Positions 19,112 to 62,933 of a stretch of 63,150 nt of DNA are shown here, one piece after another. The position numbers were made by a program, and so were the translations under genes. Where the stretch lies: positions 1-63,150 of IMG/VR virus record IMGVR_UViG_3300027872_000005; one strand, 5' to 3'. The notes beneath the pieces are model-generated. The model ran no database searches and had not been told where the DNA came from. It saw only the letters and a program-made list of their open reading frames with translations. The DNA is from a virus. The stretch's first letter is position 1. The number at the start of each line of letters is the position of its first letter.

Positions 19112-20026
19112 ATGGACCTATTAGCTGCTATCCAAGCCATGTTTAGCGGCGGTGGAATGGCTCCGGCAACCGGTTCTGTCCCTACCGCAGCTAACGTTGC
19201 TCCGGGTGCACCGCCGATGCCGTTGGGGCAGGCGGCAGGGGGGAGTCCGATGGCCGGGGGCGTACCGGCCGCACCAGGCATCGATCAATATCAGCCGCAA
19301 AACGGGCCGCTTGGCAGATTTCTCGCCACTATGTTTGGAGAGGGAGTCCCAGATCGGGTCCGGGATACTCTTGCCGGCATGGGTGCTGGCGATCCAACAC
19401 AGCCGTTCCTTACGAATTTGGGGCAGGGAGCAACAGGGGCGAGGGTCAGTCGCAAGGAACGGCTTGACCGAAAGCGCGATCTGGCGACGAAAAAACGCGA
19501 TGATGACCGGATAGAAGCCAGAATGGGCAACGAAGAAGAGCGATTGAGACTGTTGCGAGAAAACGCCGGACGCGCTGCCACAAAAGACAAGTGGAGCAAT
19601 CTCGACAAGGCATCGCAGATCATCACGCGAGAGTCAAAACGCCGGTTGAAAGAATCCGGCGACTATCTGACGACAGATCAACAATTCAAACTTTTCAAAC
19701 TCGTCCGAGAAGAAGTCGAAGCCGAAATGGGGGAGCCGGATGATTATGAAGGTTGGAGCGAAGAGGAACTTGCCAAGATAGAAAAACTGACCGAAAAATG
19801 GACCGATTATTACCGTGAGAAATTGAAAAGAGGGAGTGTTACGACGCCAGCCACGGCTGATCTTGGCGTTCCGGTCGCCGATCCTGCAACTGGCATTTTC
19901 ACCCTTCCGCCTGGATTAACGCCGGAACAGCAGAAGGAATGGTTTGAACAGATTCCTCCCGGCACCCCGGAAAACCCCACAAGAGTCATCAATCCAGCTA
20001 CTGGTCTGGAAGTTGAAAAAGAATGA
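19112..20026 (+). CDS. Hypothetical virion-module protein (304 aa)
   Basis: Three parts: a Pro/Ala/Gly-rich N-terminus (residues 1-65), a charged helical centre rich in Arg, Lys and Glu (about 95-245), and a Pro-rich end with LPPGLTPEQQKEW. It overlaps the 1413-residue polyvalent gene by four bases, so it is probably co-translated and may travel with it in the virion. No family recognised. Confidence 0.55.
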   Translation: MDLLAAIQAMFSGGGMAPATGSVPTAANVAPGAPPMPLGQAAGGSPMAGGVPAAPGIDQYQPQNGPLGRFLATMFGEGVPDRVRDTLAGMGAGDPTQPFLTNLGQGATGARVSRKERLDRKRDLATKKRDDDRIEARMGNEEERLRLLRENAGRAATKDKWSNLDKASQIITRESKRRLKESGDYLTTDQQFKLFKLVREEVEAEMGEPDDYEGWSEEELAKIEKLTEKWTDYYREKLKRGSVTTPATADLGVPVADPATGIFTLPPGLTPEQQKEWFEQIPPGTPENPTRVINPATGLEVEKE

Positions 20027-23000
20027 CGCTTATCGAGGATAAGGTCTATGAATTGTTGGGCGGCGTTGAAGAGACGGAGCCGATCGATCTATTAAAGTTG
20101 CCGGGGTTCAAACCAGTATCCGACACCCCGATTCCACGGGCAAAGCCCGTCAAGGCTGAACCAATCGATTTGTTGAGTATGCCGGGATTCAAGCCGGTAG
20201 AGCCGGTCGAGCCGGACTTGTCAGCTTCTGCATCCATCCCCTCCGATGAGGCATACGCCGCTTGGAACGAGAAAGAGGGAGTCGAAATACCGGCCCTGAA
20301 ACCACGTATCGAGCGCGGCGTCGATACTGACGTTCTGGATTCCGCCTTCGAGCGCACGGGCGAAGTGCCGCTGATGCGTAAGGACGAGTTTTCCGAGTGG
20401 GCCAGCGACATTCATCAAAAAATAAGCCAATCACCGGCGGGGCCGCATTTCTTCAAGCATCTGGACGAATTGCGCGATGGTCGCATGACGTCGGCTGAGT
20501 TCGAGAAAAAGGTAAGGTCTGAAATCCTGCCAGGCTCCGTTAAGGGTGGGGAACAGGCCAAACCATTAGAGCCAAGCGAGGACGCCTATCTGGAAGGCGT
20601 AGCCGGGACAGCACGGTTCACGGGTGGGCCGGGACAACTGGAAAATCTCGACCAGCTTCTTCCAGAGAGTGTTTTTGGCGATTATGGCCGGCTTACGGAA
20701 AAACAGGGGATTCAGGAGGTCAAGGAAAGATTGCCAGCGGATGTGGCCAAAGCGAAACAATTGATGGAGGAATTGCCGGAGGAACAGGAACGTAGCAGGA
20801 CACCGGGTCTGCTTGAGGAAGGTGGGCCGCAGAATCTACGCGGTGAAATGCTGAAAAGGGAACGCAAAGGACGCTACGAGCAGCGTTCCAGAGAGGCCCT
20901 TGAGGCGTTTCAGAAAGTTCTCAAGGATCGTAGCCAGCTTGCAGGCGAAATGCCGCTTCCGAAATTTTCCAAAATGAGAGACGCGCTTGATCGTTTCGCT
21001 TTTGGACTTTTCCAAGCTGTGCCAGGCGTGATGAAATGGAGCGGCATTGCTGCTGGAAATGTCATCCCCGGCGTCGATGAGGCGAACGCCGTTAAAAAGG
21101 CCGGCGATTATATGGAGGAACGGCTGCTTAAAGCCTTCCCCGGTGACGAGACGCGGGCAGATGATTTAATATCCGGCCTGGCGGGCGGCGGCGGGTCGAT
21201 GGGTGGATTTGTGGCTGGCGGCGGCTTGATGGGCGGCCTTTTCAAGATGTTGGGGATGCCGGCCCGTGCGGCGCGTACTACCGGCGTTGCAGCGATTGGT
21301 GGCGCTGTGGAAGGGCCGGGCGGCTACGAGGATGCTGTAAAGTTCGGCGCTACGGCAATTCAGAAATATACGGCGTTTTATCTCAGAACCGGGCTTGGCC
21401 TGACCGAAGCACTGCCGATCGATCGTTTCTTTATGCGGCTGCAAAATCGCAGCGGTGGCAGGGTGTCAAGGATGCTGGCAAATACCCAAGCACAAGGCTT
21501 TGAGGAATTTCTGCAAGAGTTTGGCCAGAATGTCGGCGGTGATGTAATTGCAGCCGGCTTGGGCGATATTTTCCCCGGATATGACCCTGATCGAAAGATT
21601 GATTGGGACGCAGCGATCAAGAACGGCACAATCGGCGCTATCCTGGGCGGTATTATGGGTTTTGGCACCGGTATGCCCAGCGGGCACAAGCCGCCTAAAC
21701 TGCCAGACATCCCGCCTGAAATTGCCGAGCAAGAAGCCAGGCGTCGGATGCAGCCGCCGCCATCGTTCCCAGTGGAAGAACCTCCGGGGCCAAGCGCGGG
21801 ACCGGTCACACCACCGGCTCCCGTGGCTCCGCAGGCTCCCACGGTAGCTACCGAGCCCGAGCCGTCAGAGGGCGGCGTCCAGCCGCCAGAACCAGAAGAA
21901 GAAAAGCCGGAACAGGTAGCGAGCAGGGACGAAGCCGCTTTGCTGCGCGGTGCTGGCTGGATTGATAAAGAAATCTTCGGTATGGATAGGGAAGTTCTCG
22001 ATGTGAACCTTGAAAAAGCTCGCAAACAACGCGCGGAGCCTATCTATGACGATGATGAAATTCAAACGGAAGATGCTGGACCGGCGGCTGTCGAAACGCC
22101 AGGCGTACCAACACGAACTGAACCAGATGAAGGAGAGCCCGGACAAGAAGGTGTCGCAAGCGTCGAGGAACTCGACGAAACTGGCACTAAACCGGTGGAT
22201 CAAGACGCTGGACAAGGAGATCGACGTCCTGTTTCACCACCAGAGCCGACGAAGGAAATTGAGCCTGAGGAGCCCGAACCTTCCGTAGAACAATTTGAGC
22301 CGGAGCACATCGTCGATGACGATCCGGACTACGATGAGCGTATGGACGAATTGGAGGCCGAAGGCACGGCAGAAAAGCCGGTTGTCGTAGAAACGGCCGA
22401 GGATCTGGAACAGGCCGCAGCGGTGGCCGATCCGGACCCGCCAGAGGGCAAGATAAAAGCCGGCACCTATCAAAAGGGCCATGCCAAGATCCACGGCCTC
22501 GATGTAACAATCGAGAACGCCAAGGGCTCTGTGCGGCGCGGGCGGGGCGCTGACGGCAAAGCTTGGCGCGTCAAAATGCCGGCCGCCTACGGCTACATCA
22601 AGCGCACCGAAGGCGCAGACGGAGATCAGGTCGATGTCTACATCGGCGACGATCCCGCGAGCAAACAGGTGTTTGTCGTCGATCAGAACACCCTTGAGGG
22701 CGCGTTTGACGAGCACAAGGCCATCATGGGCGTCGGCACCGTCGAGGAAGCCCGTGCGCTTTATATCGAAGGTTTCTCTGACGGTAAGGGCGAGCAGCGT
22801 ATCCGTGCCATCACGGAAATTCCGATCGATGAGTTCAAGGAATGGGTCAAAAGCGCTGACTCAACAAAACCACTTGGTAGAGTTGACAAGCCCAAAAAGC
22901 CGCCGAAGCCGGGCACCCGTCCACAACTATCAACTGACGAGGCGACTTACAAAGGAGACTTAGTTCCTGCTGTTCGTGTGGGCGATGATTTATTTATAGG

Positions 23001-24264
23001 AGATACTCATCAAAGCGCACTCGCCAAAGCCGTTCAACATTTTGGTGAAGATAGTCCGGAAATCCGCGCCTTTGAAGCCCTCGACGATCCCATGCAAAAC
23101 ATTGGGACACTCAAAGGCAAACGACCTAGCGGTGTATCTAAGTTTCTAGCCGGTGTATCCGGCGACCCCAAAGCAATCGTCGATGCCATGAAAAAACGGC
23201 GGGACACAAAGCCGACCGCTCGTGGGCCATCTGATCCTGAATTGAGAATGGTCAAAATGCCGGCCCGGCGAATATTGAAAAAAGCTGGCGGCGTTGATCC
23301 CAAAAGTCCGCTTGCCGGCGAATTGCGGCACATGGGGATCACTAACAAATCGGCGCTTGGCCTGTTCAAAAAGGGTGGACGAACCGCGGTCGATAATTTT
23401 GTCGCCAGCGACCATGACATTTTCGCGAACATTGAAACCAATAATGGCTACGTTCCGCAAGAAGTGTTTTTTGAAGCGCTGCGCGATGAAATGTCAGGGG
23501 CGCCGTGGCGTTCGGTTGAAGAACAAACGGCGATCGATGAGTTCAAAGGCGCGATGCGCGGCGGTGATGAAGAGCAGCGGACTCGTGAGGACATCATTGC
23601 TCTGATCGAGGAAAATGGTGGTGAAGCCGATCAGGAATGGGTTAAAGCAGCGATGGATTTGGTCACGGCTGGTGAAGCCGTTGACGAAGCGATCGCGCTT
23701 GCCGCTGAAAACCTGCAAGTGAAAGAGGCGTCTGATGAAGATGCTATCGAAGAAGATGCAATCCCGTTTGGCGAAAGGCCACCTGAGTCTGAAAGAGACA
23801 CGGGAAGTCGTGAGCCAATTGCGCCGCCGCGAAGCGAGCGCATCCCCGCTGGAGAAGAAGATACTGCAGAGGCATCGGAAGCGGTTCGCGATGCTGGTCA
23901 GGATGAGGGCCAAACAGCAGTAGAGCCCGGCGCCGAAGGCAAGCCGCAAGGCGTCCTGCCTGGCACCGAGAAAATCAGCGACGCCGAACTGGCACAGCGC
24001 AAGGCTGACCAACGCCTCAAGCCCAAAGCAGATCAACAGCAGGCCGATGAAGGTCTGTTCAGCGACGACAGCCGGCAGGTTGATCAGGTCGATGAAGATC
24101 GCAAGCCAACCAAACCGCTTGATGATATCCACATCACCATCAAGGCCGACATTGCCGGCACCGAAGAGACGGCGACAATCCGCTTTACGGCGGTTGAGGC
24201 GCTGAAACTGGTCGATGACCGGATCGCTGGTCTGCAGCAGCTCAAGGATTGCGTGTCGGCATGA
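20023..24264 (+). CDS. Large polyvalent protein with inorganic pyrophosphatase-like domain
   Basis: 1413 residues. Near the N-terminus the motif EPIDLL.(L/M)PGFKPV occurs twice. Residues about 385-435 and 535-560 are Gly/Ala-rich and hydrophobic, possibly membrane-interacting. After a long acidic linker, residues about 806-946 match the phage inorganic-pyrophosphatase-like domain of polyvalent proteins (AAYGYIKRTEGADGDQVDVY, then ADGKAWRVKMP-type strands). Residues 1306-1358 form a conserved segment (PQGVLPG to LFSDDSRQVDQVD) that recurs in a small early protein at 52947-53156. Polyvalent proteins of this kind are packaged and injected to counter host defences; that role here is inference from family knowledge and position. 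Confidence 0.75.
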   Translation: MTLIEDKVYELLGGVEETEPIDLLKLPGFKPVSDTPIPRAKPVKAEPIDLLSMPGFKPVEPVEPDLSASASIPSDEAYAAWNEKEGVEIPALKPRIERGVDTDVLDSAFERTGEVPLMRKDEFSEWASDIHQKISQSPAGPHFFKHLDELRDGRMTSAEFEKKVRSEILPGSVKGGEQAKPLEPSEDAYLEGVAGTARFTGGPGQLENLDQLLPESVFGDYGRLTEKQGIQEVKERLPADVAKAKQLMEELPEEQERSRTPGLLEEGGPQNLRGEMLKRERKGRYEQRSREALEAFQKVLKDRSQLAGEMPLPKFSKMRDALDRFAFGLFQAVPGVMKWSGIAAGNVIPGVDEANAVKKAGDYMEERLLKAFPGDETRADDLISGLAGGGGSMGGFVAGGGLMGGLFKMLGMPARAARTTGVAAIGGAVEGPGGYEDAVKFGATAIQKYTAFYLRTGLGLTEALPIDRFFMRLQNRSGGRVSRMLANTQAQGFEEFLQEFGQNVGGDVIAAGLGDIFPGYDPDRKIDWDAAIKNGTIGAILGGIMGFGTGMPSGHKPPKLPDIPPEIAEQEARRRMQPPPSFPVEEPPGPSAGPVTPPAPVAPQAPTVATEPEPSEGGVQPPEPEEEKPEQVASRDEAALLRGAGWIDKEIFGMDREVLDVNLEKARKQRAEPIYDDDEIQTEDAGPAAVETPGVPTRTEPDEGEPGQEGVASVEELDETGTKPVDQDAGQGDRRPVSPPEPTKEIEPEEPEPSVEQFEPEHIVDDDPDYDERMDELEAEGTAEKPVVVETAEDLEQAAAVADPDPPEGKIKAGTYQKGHAKIHGLDVTIENAKGSVRRGRGADGKAWRVKMPAAYGYIKRTEGADGDQVDVYIGDDPASKQVFVVDQNTLEGAFDEHKAIMGVGTVEEARALYIEGFSDGKGEQRIRAITEIPIDEFKEWVKSADSTKPLGRVDKPKKPPKPGTRPQLSTDEATYKGDLVPAVRVGDDLFIGDTHQSALAKAVQHFGEDSPEIRAFEALDDPMQNIGTLKGKRPSGVSKFLAGVSGDPKAIVDAMKKRRDTKPTARGPSDPELRMVKMPARRILKKAGGVDPKSPLAGELRHMGITNKSALGLFKKGGRTAVDNFVASDHDIFANIETNNGYVPQEVFFEALRDEMSGAPWRSVEEQTAIDEFKGAMRGGDEEQRTREDIIALIEENGGEADQEWVKAAMDLVTAGEAVDEAIALAAENLQVKEASDEDAIEEDAIPFGERPPESERDTGSREPIAPPRSERIPAGEEDTAEASEAVRDAGQDEGQTAVEPGAEGKPQGVLPGTEKISDAELAQRKADQRLKPKADQQQADEGLFSDDSRQVDQVDEDRKPTKPLDDIHITIKADIAGTEETATIRFTAVEALKLVDDRIAGLQQLKDCVSA

Positions 24265-34700: not shown

Positions 34701-37700
34701 ACATGCAGAACGCGCGGTATCCGGATGAACTCAGGAAAGTCGTGACCAGCCTTTCATGGCGGCCAGAAGTACGCAGACCATCGAGCGTTGAGGGTCAGAT
34801 TGTCAGGATTGTCACCACCATCCAGAAGGATTTAGATGCCGCTCCCATGAGATTCGCGGTCGAGCCTAATGGTGTGATTTCCGCAGCAATGCCGGAAAGA
34901 GCGAAAGGCAAGCACATCGAGGAATTGGTCGGCAAGGAAATGGCCGACCAGATTATGGCGGAGCCGTCTGGTGTCATCGATGCCGAGGACTTCGTGATCG
35001 GCGGCGAGGGCATGAGGGGTTTCTACGACAAGATACTGCGCTCTGCCGCCAACAAGATCGGCAAGAAGTTCGGGGCCAAGACAGGGACGGTAGGACTTCC
35101 CGGAGAATACGAAATTTACCAAGACGTTAAAAGCGGGCTTTGGTTTATTGACGAAGCCGATGTTGACGCAGCCGAAGGGATGAACTCCGGTATAACAACA
35201 TACGAAACAGAGATCGATGCAAGGGAGGCATTGAAAAAATATCAAGGACCGAACGTCGAAGTTTGGTCCCTACCCATCACCGACGAATTGCGTGAAGCGG
35301 TCAGTTCCGGCGGCCTGCCAATGTTCCAGAGCCGCCGGCTGACGCCTGCCGCACAGGCCGCCAAGCCGCTGATCGAGGAAAAGGTGATCGAGATCATCCG
35401 GCGCATGACCGATGGGCTCGAAATCCAGCTTCACCCTGACTGGATCGAGGCCGGCAATTACGTCGCACTCGAAGGCTCCGGTGGAGGCACTGTAGCGGGC
35501 GGTTTTGCTGATAAAATACAGGGAATTATCGGCATTGCGATGTCGTCTGAAGCAAGTCCGACCGAAGCGGCGTTTCACGAAGGCTGGCACTTCAATGAGG
35601 ATTTTATGACGCCGCGCGAGAAGGTGTTGATGAAGTTGGAATTGCCACGGCTGCGCAGAATCGTCCTGAATCACTATCCTTCTTTGGGAGATCGGCCAAT
35701 CGGGGAAGTCATTGGTCAGATTTCCGATAATGAGATCATCGCTTATGCCGGCGCCTACCACATGCAGCGTGGTCTTGTCGGTGTCCATATCGGCATTCGC
35801 CGGTTCTTCGATCGCATGGCCCGGATGTTCCGGCAGATCCGCAATGCCATGCGCGGTCTTGGCTTCAATACCGCCGAAGACATATTTGATATTGCCGAGA
35901 CCGGCAAAATGAAAACCCGCGCAACACCAGCCAAAAGACGCCAATTGGCGCGTGATATGTACCGGGCCACGGGAACTACCGAGCCACAATATTCCGCCAG
36001 GCGTCGGCCAAAGACAGATCCAAAGGCTTCGTTTGAGGCAGCGGAGGATGTTTCGTGGGTGATGCGCCGCCTGTTGCGCGGCAATAAATCGATCTTGGGC
36101 ATGACCTACCCGGAATTTATCACCGACAAGGGCATCATGCGGCAGAAAACTCAGGATCGAATGAACAGCGTCAAACGGCAGCAGCGGGCGATCGAGGCAA
36201 GTGGCGGCGTCATCCCGGAATCTCTGGACACCTATCTGGCCGAAGAGAATTATTACGGCAAGGCGGGCGAGCGCCAGACGGCATTCCTGCAAAACCACAT
36301 CGATCCGCTGACCGCCGACATGCGCGAGCGAAACATCACCGGGGTCGAATTGGGCGACTATTTGTATGCTCGTCATGCACCGGAGCGCAATAAAACCATG
36401 CTCGAACGAAATCCGGACATTGAAGACGGATCGGGCATGTCGAACGATGAAGCCGCGCGAATTATGGCTAGGATCGCCAGGGAAGGCCGTACAGGCGATT
36501 TCGAGGCGGTGGCCAAGCGGATAGACCGGATCATTAAAGACACCCGTAAGCGGTATAAGAGAGCCGGCCTGATCAGCAAAGAAGAATACGAACAATGGGA
36601 AGACCGATGGGAGTTTTACGTCCCGCTGCAAGGGTGGGCCGATGAGGCGATTGGCAACGAAGAGACTGAAATTGGTTTCAAAGGCCGCAGTGGCTTCGAT
36701 ATTCGTGGTCTTGAGAGCCAGATGGCGATGGGACGAACCAGCAGGGCCGAAAACCCGATGCTCAATGTGATCATCGCGGCCGAGCGCTCAATCCTTCGCG
36801 CCGAGAAGAACGAAGTTGCACAGACGTTCCTGAAGATGGTCCGGACATATCCCAACAAGACGCTTTGGCGGATTTATACCGGCAAACCGGAAAAAAGACT
36901 GAATAAGGATACTGGTTTGATCGAAACCTTTTGGGTGCCGCCTTGGGAAAAGACGCCTGATAATGTCGTTTCCGCCAAGGTCAATGGCGAGGTCAAATGG
37001 ATTCAGATTTATCATCCCGGAGTTTACCGGGGCATGAAGATGCTCGGCACCGACAACTTCAACGATGTTATCGCGACGTTCGGGATGCTCAACCGCTATC
37101 TGAGCCGGGTCAATACCTCGCTCAATCCGGGGTTCATTGTGCGCAACTTCGCCAGGGATCTGCAGACCGCGATGATCCATCTTGGCGAGCAAGATATCCG
37201 CTTCATCCGTCTCAAGGTTTTAAGGGACGTACCGGCAGCGATCCGGGGTGTGTTTGGTGGATTGAAGGGCAAGCGGGACACCAAATGGCAAAAGCATTTC
37301 GAGGAATTTGCTGTCAAGGCCGGCGGCAAGGTTTCGTATTTCGATATGGATTCCCTCGAAAACAAAACCCGCAAGATCAAAATGGCCCTAGAGGAAGGCA
37401 ATTTTTATCGTGCTTTCAAATGGACGTGGGATTTGGTTGACCAGATCAACGGCGCGGTCGAAAACGGTGTCCGCCTGGCGGCCTATGTCAATCTGGTGAA
37501 GCCGGTCAGTGAGGGCGGGGGAGGCCAGACCATGGCTAAAGCCGCATCCTTCGGCCGCAACATGACCGTGAATTTCAATCGCAAGGGCGAGTGGGGTCCA
37601 ACGGGCAATGCGCTCTACCTGTTCTACAATGTCGGCATTAACGGACCGGCGCGAATGTTTCAGTTTATGAGGCGCGAACCGGCCAAGGCGGCAAAATATT

Positions 37701-48721: not shown

Positions 48722-49840
48722 TCATTTGCCTTCCAACTTTTTGAATTGGGCGTGGTAAGCCTCGACAACCTCTTCCCAATCGGCTTCTGAGAGTTTGTCG
48801 CCGCCAAATTTCCCATTGGCGTAGGGATGCACTTCTACATTCCAATATTTCTCCAACTTTGATTGCACTTTGAAGTCCTTAAACACGCTGATCACGCCGT
48901 CCTTGAACAGATCCGGATCGCTGATCACGCCGTCTGGCTCGTGTGATCCCATCGCCTTCGTCGGTGGCGGCGGTCCTTCCTCGATAGCGGCAGCGTTTCG
49001 AGCGGCTTCCCTGGCCAGCACATCCTCAACTTCGTCCATCACTACCGCAACATCTTCTGGCATTATGTCGGTGCTTTTGCCGTTTTCCGGTACTGGTTCG
49101 TCTCGAACATTGCCAGCGCTCGACCAATCCGGAAACGGCTCATTCGGCTTTCGTTTCAGGGCTTCCGGGATGTCCGGGTAGCCTTCTACCGCCTCTGCTA
49201 CCGAATTAGGTGCGACATTCACCGTCGCAACGAGCTCGCCAGTCACATCGTCGATGACGTCTGCCTTGTAAATTATACCGGGCGCCGGCGCTTCATTCTC
49301 GACCGGCGTTACGTCTGTCATTGGGCGCACATCGATGCCAGCGCGTTCAGCTTCATCAACGTCCATGATGCCGGCAAAACCAAAGGCATAGCGGGCGGCT
49401 TGGATTGCAGATTTGTGGCGTAACATCCGGCGTTTCCATTGTTTCCACGGTTGGGTGTCGCGGTAACACTCGGCCATGTATTCGGTGACGACGATTGGGT
49501 GAGTTCGATCTTTGCGCCATATCCGACAACTGATTGAAACCAGATTGCCGTCCTGGATATTGTCGTCAAATTCGAGACCATCCATCTGCGGGTGGCTGTT
49601 CATCAGGTTCATCCAACCATCGATTGACACGATAGGCTGGATGCCACCGCCTTTTTTTGGAAAAGCGTAGATTTCCCGCGTGATCGGATTCAAGTTGTAT
49701 TCGTTTGCCACAACCAAAAATGCGGCAAATTCCTCACGAGTGCAGTTATCTGGCACCACGGTCTTGCGTAGGGTTTGCTCGAACGGCGCAGGCTCCATTC
49801 CATAACGATTGGCAACGATTGTCGTGACTGATTTGGTCAT
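48722..49840 (-). CDS. RecT/Bet-family single-strand annealing protein
   Basis: 372 residues. Residues 1-190 match the Bet/RecT core: EQTLRKTVVPDNCTREEFAAFL, LNPITREIYAFPKKGGGIQPIVSIDGWMNL and WKRRMLRHKSAIQAARYAFG. The remaining 180 residues are an acidic, probably disordered extension, longer than in typical Bet proteins (about 260 residues). It anneals complementary single strands in phage recombination and replication. It lies in the leftward early operon between a helical protein and a possible nuclease. Confidence 0.88.
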   Translation of the reverse strand: MTKSVTTIVANRYGMEPAPFEQTLRKTVVPDNCTREEFAAFLVVANEYNLNPITREIYAFPKKGGGIQPIVSIDGWMNLMNSHPQMDGLEFDDNIQDGNLVSISCRIWRKDRTHPIVVTEYMAECYRDTQPWKQWKRRMLRHKSAIQAARYAFGFAGIMDVDEAERAGIDVRPMTDVTPVENEAPAPGIIYKADVIDDVTGELVATVNVAPNSVAEAVEGYPDIPEALKRKPNEPFPDWSSAGNVRDEPVPENGKSTDIMPEDVAVVMDEVEDVLAREAARNAAAIEEGPPPPTKAMGSHEPDGVISDPDLFKDGVISVFKDFKVQSKLEKYWNVEVHPYANGKFGGDKLSEADWEEVVEAYHAQFKKLEGK

Positions 49841-49852
49841 TGGTTTGCTCCT

Positions 49853-50887
49853 TTAGACCGCGATTTTCACTTCCGAAACGCTGACGCCTGGTAAGCTGCC
49901 GCCAGCCCGCACGACCTTATCGGCGATCTTCTGCGCCAGCTCGCGCATTTCATCGTAGGTCTTGAGTTCCTCGATGAGCGCGTCGTAATCCTCGATCACT
50001 GCGACTTTCTTTTTTCTGTTTGACGTGCGCTTGCCCATCCTGCCGCCGACGCGGGTTTTGCTGGCTTCCTCGATCTCGTCTTTGCTCATTTCCGGGGAAG
50101 CTGCTTGCAGCGCCTTCTTCTTGATGTTCTCAATCGCGTCGATCAGTGTTTGCAAGGGTTTGCGCACACTGTCAGCGGCTTCCTTGGCCATTGTGAGCAT
50201 CGGTAGCCATTTCCCTTGGACATCGCTTTTGCCCTTGTCCCACGGCTCCGCTTCCAGCTTGCGCAAGCTCTCGGCTTTCTTGCGCAAATCGTTCGCCTTG
50301 TCGCGCAGATTGGCGATCCTGTCGGCGTCGTCTTTGGTTTTCAGATCGCCGGCCAAGGCTTCCTCGATAGCGCGGGAAACATCGCCTATCTCATAATGCA
50401 GCCGAACGTGTTCATCCGGCGGCTCGTTGTGGCCGATGCCGGGGGCGTCAGTGTGAAGTCTCACGTCCAAGGTTGAATCGTCCTGTAGGGCGTCTTTGAC
50501 GGCTTCTGGCGTCAGGTCGATGTCGGCGGTCTCGTCTGGCCAGCGCTCGCCGGCCATGACGCTTTCAAACAGTTCATGTTCAATCGGGTGTTCGCAACAG
50601 GAGAGAAACGTTTTCCAATGTGCATCGTCGCCTTTTTTATCAATCGGCTTCAAATTTTTTGAGCCGATCTTGACCTGCATGTTGCCGCTGGAGTTCCGCC
50701 AGATCGAGACCGGCTGCACCGAACCGTCTTTCCTTGCTATTCGATAGAATCCGGGCTGCGGCCCGTCTTTTTCGTGCCATTCTTTGATTTGACCATCCAG
50801 ATTCATCCGCCAGTGGCGGTATTGATCAACGCCGTATTTGTCGTTTGCAGCCAGGTTTCTTTTGTCGTCTGGCATCATTTTTGCCAT
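49853..50887 (-). CDS. Hypothetical coiled-coil protein upstream of RecT (344 aa)
   Basis: N-terminal domain (residues 1-125) with aromatic-rich strands, a linker containing DAPGIGHNEPPDEH, and a long helical region (about 170-275) rich in Lys, Glu and Ala, then a basic stretch (RTSNRKKK). Proteins with the GHNEPP-type linker often sit beside recT in phages but their role is unknown. It may be a recombination accessory. Confidence 0.65.
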   Translation of the reverse strand: MAKMMPDDKRNLAANDKYGVDQYRHWRMNLDGQIKEWHEKDGPQPGFYRIARKDGSVQPVSIWRNSSGNMQVKIGSKNLKPIDKKGDDAHWKTFLSCCEHPIEHELFESVMAGERWPDETADIDLTPEAVKDALQDDSTLDVRLHTDAPGIGHNEPPDEHVRLHYEIGDVSRAIEEALAGDLKTKDDADRIANLRDKANDLRKKAESLRKLEAEPWDKGKSDVQGKWLPMLTMAKEAADSVRKPLQTLIDAIENIKKKALQAASPEMSKDEIEEASKTRVGGRMGKRTSNRKKKVAVIEDYDALIEELKTYDEMRELAQKIADKVVRAGGSLPGVSVSEVKIAV

Positions 50888-52799: not shown

Positions 52800-52950
52800 G
52801 TCGTTGCTCCCTGATGGCCTTGACGGCCTTTTGGTATTCGGCCCATTTCTGGTCAAAATCCCGTTTCCAAGAATAGTAGTCCGCGACGAGGATAATCACG
52901 CCGCCGACCACCATGATGATGATGAGGTAGAAGAAAGGGTCGGAGGTCAT
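52786..52950 (-). CDS. Small membrane protein (54 aa)
   Basis: A 54-residue gene with one transmembrane helix (FYLIIIMVVGGVIILVADYY) followed by a charged helix. It overlaps the genes on both sides (4 and 14 bases), a strong sign of translation. Early phage membrane proteins of this kind can be exclusion or regulatory factors; the role here is unknown. Confidence 0.6.
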   Translation of the reverse strand: MTSDPFFYLIIIMVVGGVIILVADYYSWKRDFDQKWAEYQKAVKAIREQRHENH

Positions 52951-53156
52951 GGTCTTGTGCTCCGCGCCATATCGACAAGATCGACCTGGCGGCTGTCATC
53001 GCCGAATAAGCCGTCGTCAGCCTGCTTCTGCGCTTTCTTGGGTTTCAGTGGCTCGTCGGCCAGGCGCTGCGCCTGTTGCGCTTCGCTGATCCGCTCAGCA
53101 CCCGGCAGGACACCTTGCGGCCTCCCATCGGCACCTAGTTCAAGTTCTGTGTTCAT
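52947..53156 (-). CDS. Early protein sharing a segment with the 1413-residue polyvalent protein (69 aa)
   Basis: Residues 11-65 align without gaps to residues 1306-1358 of the polyvalent protein at 20023, about two thirds identical by eye, with the shared landmarks PQGVLPG, AQR.AD..LKPK and GLF.DDSRQVD. The start at 53156 has an AGGAG site. The function is unknown, but the segment must be useful both as a free early peptide and inside a virion protein. Confidence 0.75.
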   Translation of the reverse strand: MNTELELGADGRPQGVLPGAERISEAQQAQRLADEPLKPKKAQKQADDGLFGDDSRQVDLVDMARSTRP

Positions 53157-53166
53157 GTGCTTGCTC

Positions 53167-53391
53167 CTAGAATGTGCAACAGCCGCAGCATGGTGCATCT
53201 TCGCACCGCCCGCGCCTGTTCTGGTAGAATGTGCCGCCGCTTGTCTGAACGACTGTGACCGCCGGCGCGTCTTCGTCGGCGCAAGCTAGATGCGCGACTT
53301 GCCAGCCTCGACCTACCCGGCGCAGTGTCCCGGCTTTGGCCGCAACGGGACCATTGCAATGCTCGCAAGTCCCAGCATAACGATTCAACAT
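53167..53391 (-). CDS. Small zinc-binding protein (74 aa)
   Basis: Begins MLNRYAGTCEHCNGPV and ends NRRGRCEDAPCCGCCTF: two Cys pairs plus H-x-x-C suggest two metal sites. This is a recognisable family of tiny early proteins of alphaproteobacterial phages. It is the first gene of the leftward operon, opposite the regulator, with an AGGAG site. Confidence 0.7.
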   Translation of the reverse strand: MLNRYAGTCEHCNGPVAAKAGTLRRVGRGWQVAHLACADEDAPAVTVVQTSGGTFYQNRRGRCEDAPCCGCCTF

Positions 53392-53508: not shown

Positions 53509-53742
53509 ATGGGACGCATAAAACGTCATCGCAGCAAAACCGAGATTGATGCATTAGTGGATGCGATTTCGAACCTGGGCGGCGAACTCGCGGCATCAAT
53601 CGCAATCGGAAATATCAGCAAAGCCGCTGTGCAAAAATGGCACATCAGCGGTGTACCGGCGGAACGCTGCGCTGATCTGGAACGGCTCAGCGGCGTACCC
53701 AAGGGGCTGTTAAGGCCGGATTTGTTTGAGCTGCCGGCATGA
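53509..53742 (+). CDS. Cro/YdaS-like transcriptional regulator (77 aa)
   Basis: 77 residues with a helix-turn-helix of the YdaS/Cro type: GGELAASIAIGNISKAAVQKW (about residues 24-44) and the recognition-helix flank VPAERCADLERLSG followed by LRPDLF, the usual YdaS ending. It is the first rightward early gene, 22 bases behind an inverted operator pair, so autoregulation and control of the divergent operon are likely. Confidence 0.8.
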   Translation: MGRIKRHRSKTEIDALVDAISNLGGELAASIAIGNISKAAVQKWHISGVPAERCADLERLSGVPKGLLRPDLFELPA

Positions 53743-55106: not shown

Positions 55107-55510
55107 TCTGCCGCTGGTTCGGCCACTGGTGGCGCAAGGGTAAGCTGATCGCTGACCCAGGCGCTACCCATGTTGGCGAAATGTGGACGTGTCGCATCTG
55201 CGGAAAATTTGAAGAACACCTGTTGCCCGGTATCCGCTATGCTGGCTCAAGCGAATATGTGAACGCCCCGGCCGAGCGCCATCGCCTTCACATGGGCCAA
55301 GCTCAATATGAGTTCACACCACCAGAGCGATCAACGCAGGCCGAGCGCGTTGCAGGCAAATGTCTCAACTGCGGTTGGTCCGGCCAGGTGCTGTTGTCGT
55401 CGTTTCCGCGTTTTTTCGATTATGATAATTGTCGCACCCGCAGTATTTGGTCGGAGACGCCATGTCCATCGTGCAAGGGCCGTCTCACAATTACCGAAGC
55501 GCTTAAATGA
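55103..55510 (+). CDS. Zinc-ribbon protein (135 aa)
   Basis: Three CxxC knuckles (CRIC, CLNC, CPSC) plus other Cys/His indicate at least one zinc ribbon. It lies between unknown early genes and the MT-A70 gene, overlapping it by four bases. Possible nucleic-acid binding. Confidence 0.65.
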   Translation: MICRWFGHWWRKGKLIADPGATHVGEMWTCRICGKFEEHLLPGIRYAGSSEYVNAPAERHRLHMGQAQYEFTPPERSTQAERVAGKCLNCGWSGQVLLSSFPRFFDYDNCRTRSIWSETPCPSCKGRLTITEALK

Positions 55511-56103
55511 TCCCGTTACCAACAGGACAGTTCGATGTCATTCTCGCCGATCCACCTTGGAAATTCGCCAGCAACAGCCGTGCCAAGCCCGGCCGAAACG
55601 CACGGCGACACTATCCGGTCATGCGGCTGGACGATATCGCCGCGCTCCCCGTCAGGTCTCTGCGGGCCACAGATTGCGCACTGTTCCTGTGGATCACTGG
55701 TCCCATGCTCGTTATTGGGGCGCATATACCTGTGATGCAAGCCTGGGGGTTCAGGCCATCGGCAATCGCCTTCACCTGGGTCAAGCTCAATCCAAAGGCT
55801 CCCGGATTGTTCACCGTTGCCCGCGACTATCACATGGGCGGTGGTTTCACTACCAGAGCAAACGCAGAATACTGTTTACTGGGCGTCAGGGGCCGCTCAC
55901 TGCGCGTTAGCAAGTCGGTGCGAGAGTTGATCGTCGCGCCCCGCCGGCAGCACAGCAGGAAGCCAGACGAGTTCTACGAGCGCGTTCAACAGTACGTTGG
56001 CCGTGGGTATGTTCCCGAACGACGCATAGTCGAACTGTTCGCGCGGCAACAACGCTTAGGTATCGTGCCGTGGGGAGACGAGATGGAGAAATTTGATGGT
56101 TGA
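55507..56103 (+). CDS. MT-A70 family adenine N6-methyltransferase
   Basis: 198 residues with the DPPW catalytic motif at residues 15-18 (FDVILADPPWKF) and the family's typical later elements: LFLWITGPML, GFRPSAIAFTWVK and RRQHSRKPDEFYERV. MT-A70 proteins of phages and bacteria methylate adenine in DNA, probably to protect the genome from restriction or alter host regulation. It overlaps the flanking genes. Confidence 0.88.
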   Translation: MIPLPTGQFDVILADPPWKFASNSRAKPGRNARRHYPVMRLDDIAALPVRSLRATDCALFLWITGPMLVIGAHIPVMQAWGFRPSAIAFTWVKLNPKAPGLFTVARDYHMGGGFTTRANAEYCLLGVRGRSLRVSKSVRELIVAPRRQHSRKPDEFYERVQQYVGRGYVPERRIVELFARQQRLGIVPWGDEMEKFDG

Positions 56104-61860: not shown

Positions 61861-62376
61861 ATGCCCGGTAAAATGGCGCTCGTCGCCGGAAAGCTCTTGG
61901 AGCATGACGTTGAAGGCAATCTACTCTTGGGCGACGATCCCTATGTCGCCCCGCTCGCGCTGCGGCTGATCGCAATTCCCGATGCCGCGACCTACACGCT
62001 CTTGGCGAAGAACACCGGCAAAACCCACGTCCTGCCGGATCTCGGCCAGGATATCGTGATTTCGATGCCGATAGAGCAAGTCGGCTTGGAATACACGTTC
62101 ATTTACGGGGGGATTGCCGCGGACGTTTCCGACTGGCAGTTCGATACCGGAGCAAACGCCAACTTCTACCTTGGTGGCTTGGCACATCTGGATACCGGTG
62201 CTGGTTCGGCCGGCGATGAAGTTGTCCCGATTGCCGGCGACGGCAACTCCAACTCCAAGCTGGACATACTGGTTCCGGATGTCGGCACCCGCGTCCACAT
62301 GATCTGCGACGGCACCAACTGGTTCCTGAGCGGCGTGGTCGTCGGCGAAACCGTACCGAACTTCGCCGATCAGTGA
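61861..62376 (+). CDS. Beta-rich protein near the right end (171 aa)
   Basis: Starts MPGKMALVAGKLLEHDVEGN behind an AAGGAG site. A largely beta protein ending RVHMICDGTNWFLSG, a pattern found in fibre-tip or decoration proteins of phages. It is unusual to find a structural-type gene here, beside the sulfotransferase with which it overlaps by four bases. Confidence 0.55.
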   Translation: MPGKMALVAGKLLEHDVEGNLLLGDDPYVAPLALRLIAIPDAATYTLLAKNTGKTHVLPDLGQDIVISMPIEQVGLEYTFIYGGIAADVSDWQFDTGANANFYLGGLAHLDTGAGSAGDEVVPIAGDGNSNSKLDILVPDVGTRVHMICDGTNWFLSGVVVGETVPNFADQ

Positions 62377-62933
62377 GGGAGCGCAGCGTCGTCCTGCTGG
62401 ACGGTCTGCGCGTCCATTTCAACTATCGGGTTGCATCGACACGCATAGGCTCGTCGTTCAAGAACGTTGTGCGCCAGGTCTATCCCGATGAATCGGGTGA
62501 CGAATATCGGTTCATGGCCGTTCGCCACCCGCTGGATCGCATCGTATCGGCTTGGACGTGTTTCTACGCCCCCGGTCGCCTGGCATCACAGCCGGAGCTG
62601 CAACAAGCCGGATTTACCGCCGGCATGTCGTTCAACGAGTTTCTTGACCTGGTTCTGGTGTCCCATGAGGTCAACCGGCACACATGCTACCAGACGAACT
62701 TCAAAGGCCCACACACGATCGATCTTCTGATCCGGGTCGATATGCTGGTTGAAGCATGGCCAGGGCTTGTGGAGCGGTTTCCGCACTGCCTGAAGCCATT
62801 ATCGAAGATGGTCAACGCCAGTGCACACGGCGACTGGCAGGGCTACTACACGCGGGTGATGCGCACACTGGCGGAAACCGAATTTGCCTGCGATATGGCG
62901 CTCTTTGAGGATGCCAAGCACCATGAAGGTTAG
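62373..62933 (+). CDS. Sulfotransferase family 2-like protein
   Basis: 186 residues, GTG start at 62373 overlapping the previous stop (GTGA). The 5'-phosphosulfate-binding region is NYRVASTRIGSSFKNVV (RVAST at 19-23), and the 3'-phosphate motif is AVRHPLDRIVSAW (Arg51), both typical of Sulfotransfer_2 proteins that use PAPS to sulfate carbohydrates. A His/Cys-containing helix (TCYQTN) follows. Coupling to a beta-rich protein suggests it modifies a glycan linked to the phage or cell surface. Confidence 0.72.
   Translation: MRERSVVLLDGLRVHFNYRVASTRIGSSFKNVVRQVYPDESGDEYRFMAVRHPLDRIVSAWTCFYAPGRLASQPELQQAGFTAGMSFNEFLDLVLVSHEVNRHTCYQTNFKGPHTIDLLIRVDMLVEAWPGLVERFPHCLKPLSKMVNASAHGDWQGYYTRVMRTLAETEFACDMALFEDAKHHEG

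Follow-up and report, generated by a model that had tools for sequence, protein, structure and literature searches.

An unannotated two-part protein module, free and fused to polyvalent proteins, recurs in phages and ArdC/ParB-bearing elements and may address the host sliding clamp

The bacterial clamp-binding motif (CBM) is given as QL[SD]LF (Dalrymple, as cited in PMC3716654 and PMC9690074). A wider definition, Q-phi-x-[LM]-[FL] or its hexamer, tolerates Phe, Leu or Ile at the last position; pentamer and hexamer forms are both known, Asp is slightly preferred at the third position, and the flanks are mostly acidic (PMC11139829). The motif is found in Pol III alpha (QADMF), in UmuC (QLNLF) and in the tail of the IS1634 transposase, and C-terminal CBMs are used by transposases (PMC4549789). 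Free CBM peptide inhibits the growth of Escherichia coli when overexpressed (PMC11139829), and SocB inhibits replication via the clamp (PMC9690074). SocB of Caulobacter, RipA of Streptococcus pneumoniae and Twort gp168 are small proteins that are thought or shown to act on the clamp protein DnaN.

Polyvalent proteins are effectors of several domains that are injected, and where they act is for the most part guesswork. In their survey of these proteins, Iyer et al. (2017, PMC5512222) suggested that the InPase domain may clear pyrophosphate and thereby help early replication; neither a clamp nor DnaN or PCNA comes up in the text of the survey. Here we describe a module that is housed by such proteins and that has no Pfam entry.

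The locus lies in a virus record of 63,150 bases from IMG/VR, analysed over its whole length (the window), that has an SU10-type portal. The free copy of the module is an early gene of 69 residues that is almost wholly module (52947..53156, minus strand, defined by ORF translation, BLASTP and whole-record search). Its ATG is preceded by AGGAG, and the gene shares four bases, ATGA, with the one that follows. The gene is located near the promoter-proximal end of a leftward early operon that runs from a Cro/YdaS-like gene at 53509 to an exonuclease-like gene (49853..50887, minus strand; phrog_10477, E 5.6e-14) and ends with a RecT-type single-strand annealing protein (48722..49840, minus strand; PF03837, E 3.6e-25; phrog_252, E 2.7e-61). 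The 69-residue protein matched no family in Pfam, PHROG or NCBIfam. Directly upstream of it, positions 53167-53391 (minus strand) encode a Cys-rich, possibly zinc-binding protein of 74 residues, the C-terminal end of which matches phrog_2656 and phrog_5664, both of unknown function.

The fused copy occupies residues 1298-1361 (23914..24105, plus strand; BLASTP and whole-record search) of a protein of 1413 residues (20023..24264, plus strand). This carrier fits the description of a polyvalent protein in being large and in having a polyvalent-associated domain, InPase, at residues 810-943 (22450..22851, plus strand; PF18823, E 4.6e-47). The position of its gene downstream of the structural genes suggests that the protein may be packaged in the virion and injected. 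A nearby protein of 2367 residues carries LPD1, LPD5 and LPD38 (Pfam).

That the small protein duplicates a segment of the large one had been proposed in a first-pass annotation of the DNA, and this is borne out by BLASTP: aligned to residues 1298-1365 of the carrier, the 69-residue protein is identical at 44 of 68 positions (65%, E 1e-23). The alignment has a single gap, at the very end, and its gap-free part is 60 residues, slightly above the roughly 52 first noted. Searching the whole record with the 69-residue protein returned exactly two places, itself (E 2.7e-42) and the fused copy (E 4.4e-23). Over the 60 codons the DNA of the two copies is 72% identical (83, 83 and 48% at codon positions 1, 2 and 3), the same codon is used at 21 of the 41 identical residues, and the longest exact DNA match is 9 bases. 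The low identity at third codon positions (48%) rules out a recent simple DNA copy, one of the outcomes that would have counted against the annotation. The window copies are instead an old duplication or a separate acquisition, kept at the protein level.

An alignment of 49 members of the module revealed that P39, Q43, G49, L50, F51 and Q57 are invariant and that L37, D47 and D53 are conserved in at least 90%. The module has two halves: a strict core, LKPxxxQxxxDxGLF[G/S]D, is followed at a distance of a few residues by Q-x-[DE]-[LM]-[FVLI]. The core is the more strictly conserved part and is intact in both window copies; in the free copy it reads LKPKKAQKQADDGLFGD (residues 37-53; 52998..53048, minus strand). 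The tail of the free copy is ADDGLFGDDSRQVDLVDMARS, in which the pentapeptide QVDLV (residues 57-61; 52974..52988, minus strand), clamp-binding-like by the definition of PMC11139829, is followed by D. In the fused copy the corresponding pentapeptide is degenerate and reads QVDQV (residues 1352-1356; 24076..24090, plus strand), the Leu at position 4 having been lost. In other members the second half is often the C-terminal end of the protein, as in QIEMF, QLELF and QGEMF directly before the stop.

The AlphaFold2 model of the 69-residue protein is mostly coil, with short helices at residues 25-34 and 60-66, one of which lies in the module itself, and a pTM of 0.36. On this model a globular domain is rejected, and the module is taken to be linear and mostly disordered, with two parts. 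A search of the PDB sequences with the module profile gave a chance match alone (flavorubredoxin, E 0.78).

Recurrence in phages was explored in IMG/VR with two patterns. Degenerate DNA for GLFGDxxxQxDL returned 44 stretches, most of them clearly the module, and the upstream half only, L[KR]PxxxQxxxDxGLF, returned 56. After removal of duplicates about 50 distinct copies were obtained, 28 inside long ORFs and 22 at the end of small ORFs, mostly of 58-123 codons from stop to stop. The segment is thus found in other phages both alone and fused, a recurrence that the annotation had proposed to look for. Co-occurrence with polyvalent proteins, another check proposed there, was also observed: Pfam detected InPase in 12 of the 25 long module-bearing ORFs scanned, always ahead of the module, and others carry LPD38, ART-PolyVal, ddrB-ParB, strawberry-notch helicase or methylase domains. 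By their domains the long ORFs are of the polyvalent type described by Iyer et al. One ORF of 2541 residues holds two copies (G048:C1:36101-36241 and 37454-37600).

Two further IMG/VR records (G003 and G013) repeat the presence of a free and a fused copy in one phage. In both, the free gene adjoins a gene of the phrog_10477 type, which is the family of the window exonuclease, and a single-strand annealing protein gene is nearby; in a second phage with both copies, the gene beside the free one is a homologue of the window exonuclease-like gene. In the free copy of one dual-copy phage (L218 7948-8178, plus strand), a zinc-knuckle-like stretch, CSFCGKRHFFNGDC, precedes the module. Cultured phages and plasmids searched by tblastn with the 69-residue protein and with consensus segments of the longer form gave no convincing match, and a related-locus search with single window proteins found no relatives.

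A neutral low-complexity linker, without any role in binding and passed between large proteins by recombination, would agree with the predicted disorder and with the place of the module between domains of the long proteins. This explanation is very improbable and is rejected on the conservation of the module: residues are invariant across 49 diverse members, third codon positions have strongly diverged while the amino acids are conserved, and the module survives as dedicated small genes in phages and in bacterial elements.

In bacterial genomes, the module profile found matches in the order of Sphingomonas pruni (Sphingomonadales; 19 of 299 genomes) and in that of Rhizobium (7 of 297), almost all of them small ORFs. 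None of 291 genomes of the order of Hymenobacter and none of 295 of the order of Pseudomonas (0 of 586 in total) were matched, and the profile therefore seldom matches by chance. A pattern scan of the genome contigs gave mostly chance matches among the matches listed. A tblastn query of the Sphingomonas type also found an unannotated copy with the same gene order on a Mesorhizobium plasmid, near the nodulation gene nodS (NZ_AP023255.1 424695-424864; L262 6001-6170). This peptide ends in GLFDDARNQRDLF, that is, in QRDLF directly before the stop, and its gene has a zincin-like ArdC-type gene on one side and DUF2958/ParB genes on the other. Within the material covered here, the module is widespread, unannotated, both free and fused, and restricted to phage-like and ArdC/ParB-bearing elements.

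Among the matches listed for Caulobacterales (L100, L105, L166 and L187), a conserved chromosomal protein of about 190 residues has a look-alike of the first half of the module. It ends in PLRPxxPQQPLDIGLFExRPPEAPHIVMPDE, is without the Q-motif and has no Pfam match. True kinship with the module may exist.

The neighborhood of the free copies bears on the main rival of clamp binding, namely that the module is a docking or sorting tag for a partner encoded by the element, such as an ArdC/MPTase-type protein or a packaging or injection component. The first half would then provide the recognition, and the clamp likeness of the tail would be incidental or secondary. In favor of this, conservation is stricter in the first half, which is unimpaired in both window copies, and an ArdC homologue (ArdcN plus MPTase-PolyVal) accompanies the free copy at 14 of the 19 loci of the Sphingomonadales set and in 3 phage records. 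ParB homologues were found at 15 of these 19 loci and in 1 phage record, and of the 7 loci of the Rhizobium order, which have short flanks, all showed ParB and 3 showed ArdC. The free peptide thus adjoins ArdC-type anti-restriction proteins (PMC7213743) in alphaproteobacterial elements and in some phages but, unlike ArdC, is a separate gene without a catalytic domain. However, MPTase-PolyVal is absent from the Pfam families of the 25 fused proteins, many of which end at contig ends, and docking to such a partner leaves unaccounted for both the survival of the Q-motif through spacing changes and its frequent place at the extreme C terminus. We regard this alternative as unlikely, albeit the strongest of those considered.

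The resemblance of the second half to the CBM was assessed in a sample of IMG/VR members selected by the upstream half alone. Q-x-[DESN]-[LM]-[FLVIM] was found no more than 12 residues past GLF in 29 of 34 distinct members, versus 0.16 expected from shuffles, a comparison that measures conservation and not independent origins because the members are homologous. The same upstream-half pattern caught an unrelated family, in which 0 of 9 members have the motif. More telling than this count is the survival of the motif through changes of spacing: a three-residue deletion turns QLDLVEMF into QVEMF, and in the form GLFDVxGRGQRDLF there is one additional residue before the Q-motif. Moreover, hexamer-like C termini are found (QGEMKL and QTEFKL before the stop), and the published motif, Q-phi-x-[LM]-[FL], is present in 15 of 18 free copies of Sphingomonadales and Mesorhizobium, 10 of which end exactly there.

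Like the CBM proteins, the module has a short motif with Gln first, acidic flanks and a place in disordered sequence or at the very C terminus; Leu or Met and then Phe or Leu follow in part of the members. The motif region is coil in the AlphaFold2 model, and many free copies end at or near it. Unlike in those proteins, the motif is part of a conserved unit of about 50 residues that has a second, strict half, and at positions 2 and 5 many of the phage copies depart from the canonical residues. A bacterial genome that has a free copy carries QGGLF in its own DnaE and QGSLF in a DinB-family protein.

The positions of the motif differ in how well they are kept. Gln at position 1 is present in both window copies, as throughout the alignment, and both have Val at position 2. 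Across the collection, position 2 is one of LIVMF in 32 of 42 free versus 6 of 33 fused copies (Fisher p 6e-7), many fused copies having Thr at position 2 and Val or Met at position 5. Fused copies are predicted to be the weaker clamp binders, because an aliphatic or aromatic residue at position 2 is far less frequent in them than in free copies. Leu or Met at position 4 is found in about 56 of 62 other entries and in the free copy of the window, but not in its fused copy. Position 5 is Phe in 15 of 18 copies of Sphingomonadales and Mesorhizobium, in 7 of 24 free phage copies and in 9 of 33 fused copies; the free copy of the window has Val there and so departs from the strict form, which asks for Phe or Leu at one of positions 5 and 6.

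By these comparisons the free copy, QVDLV, is a near-fit to the CBM, and the fused copy, QVDQV, has lost the motif. The annotation had suggested that the shared segment may be a binding tag for one partner. A tag agrees with the disordered model and the linear motif; the claim that one partner serves both window copies is weakened, because the fused copy has lost the motif and the free copy is a near-fit only.

The degenerate fused copy of the window, together with the small size and early position of the free gene, would suit a free peptide that is chiefly an inhibitor of host replication, like the SocB toxin or Twort gp168, with the fused copies as relics or spacers. Clamp-targeting inhibitors exist, as these two proteins and the arrest of E. 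coli growth by CBM peptide illustrate, and SocB likewise uses a clamp-binding motif (PMC9690074), while gp168 is likewise phage-made. They are considered here as functional analogues only, and gp168 differs in being listed as a binder of the DNA channel, not of the pocket (PMC11139829). Among the 33 fused copies, just 5 fit the strict CBM definition but 31 keep the hydrophobic pair; among the 24 free phage copies the numbers are 4 and 21. Retention of the pair in the fused copies is unlike what relics would show. Free copies also persist beside ArdC/ParB in bacterial chromosomes and a plasmid, which again speaks against an inhibitor, and we consider this explanation quite improbable.

Docking of the tail of the module on host DnaN (the beta sliding clamp), as a tag or as a free competitor or adaptor, is the best explanation and one that we hold to be moderately probable. 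The module would be a mobile tag, with its second half as the short linear motif that enters the hydrophobic DnaN pocket. The fused form could bring what polyvalent proteins carry, such as pyrophosphatase and methylase/helicase, to clamps on DNA of the element that is newly replicating. The free form, made from early phage genes or conjugative-type elements, would occupy the same pocket, either in competition with host users of the clamp or as an adaptor whose first half, LKPxxxQxxxDxGLF[GS]D, holds a protein of the element. The neighbors of the free copies are replication/recombination or establishment genes, either ArdC/ParB or an exonuclease plus an annealing protein. Clamp binding, an effect on replication and a role of the first half are what we infer from the sequences; a clamp function is a good and testable proposal, and it leaves the most conserved half, the core, unexplained. 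Against it also stand the small share of phage copies that fit the strict definition, the departures of both window copies from that definition, and the Caulobacterales look-alike that lacks the Q-motif.

A more far-reaching reading, which we put forward tentatively and at somewhat less than an even chance, is that of a new clamp-addressing module common to alphaproteobacterial phages and conjugative-type elements. Polyvalent effectors would carry it to the host clamp, and free versions, alongside ArdC/ParB or annealing proteins and exonucleases, would bias host replication or repair toward the element via the same pocket. If this is true, the clamp tag would tell where part of the polyvalent proteins works; a pyrophosphatase, for instance, could remove pyrophosphate at the fork, a role that Iyer et al. 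proposed on different grounds. One small unannotated gene would then also link the phage and the ArdC-bearing conjugative-type lifestyles.

Two other genes of the window were observed. An MT-A70-type methyltransferase is encoded in the rightward early region (55507-56103, plus strand; PF05063, E 2.8e-27), and a sulfotransferase-like protein, unusual for a phage, is encoded at 62373-62933 (plus strand; PF03567, E 4e-7).
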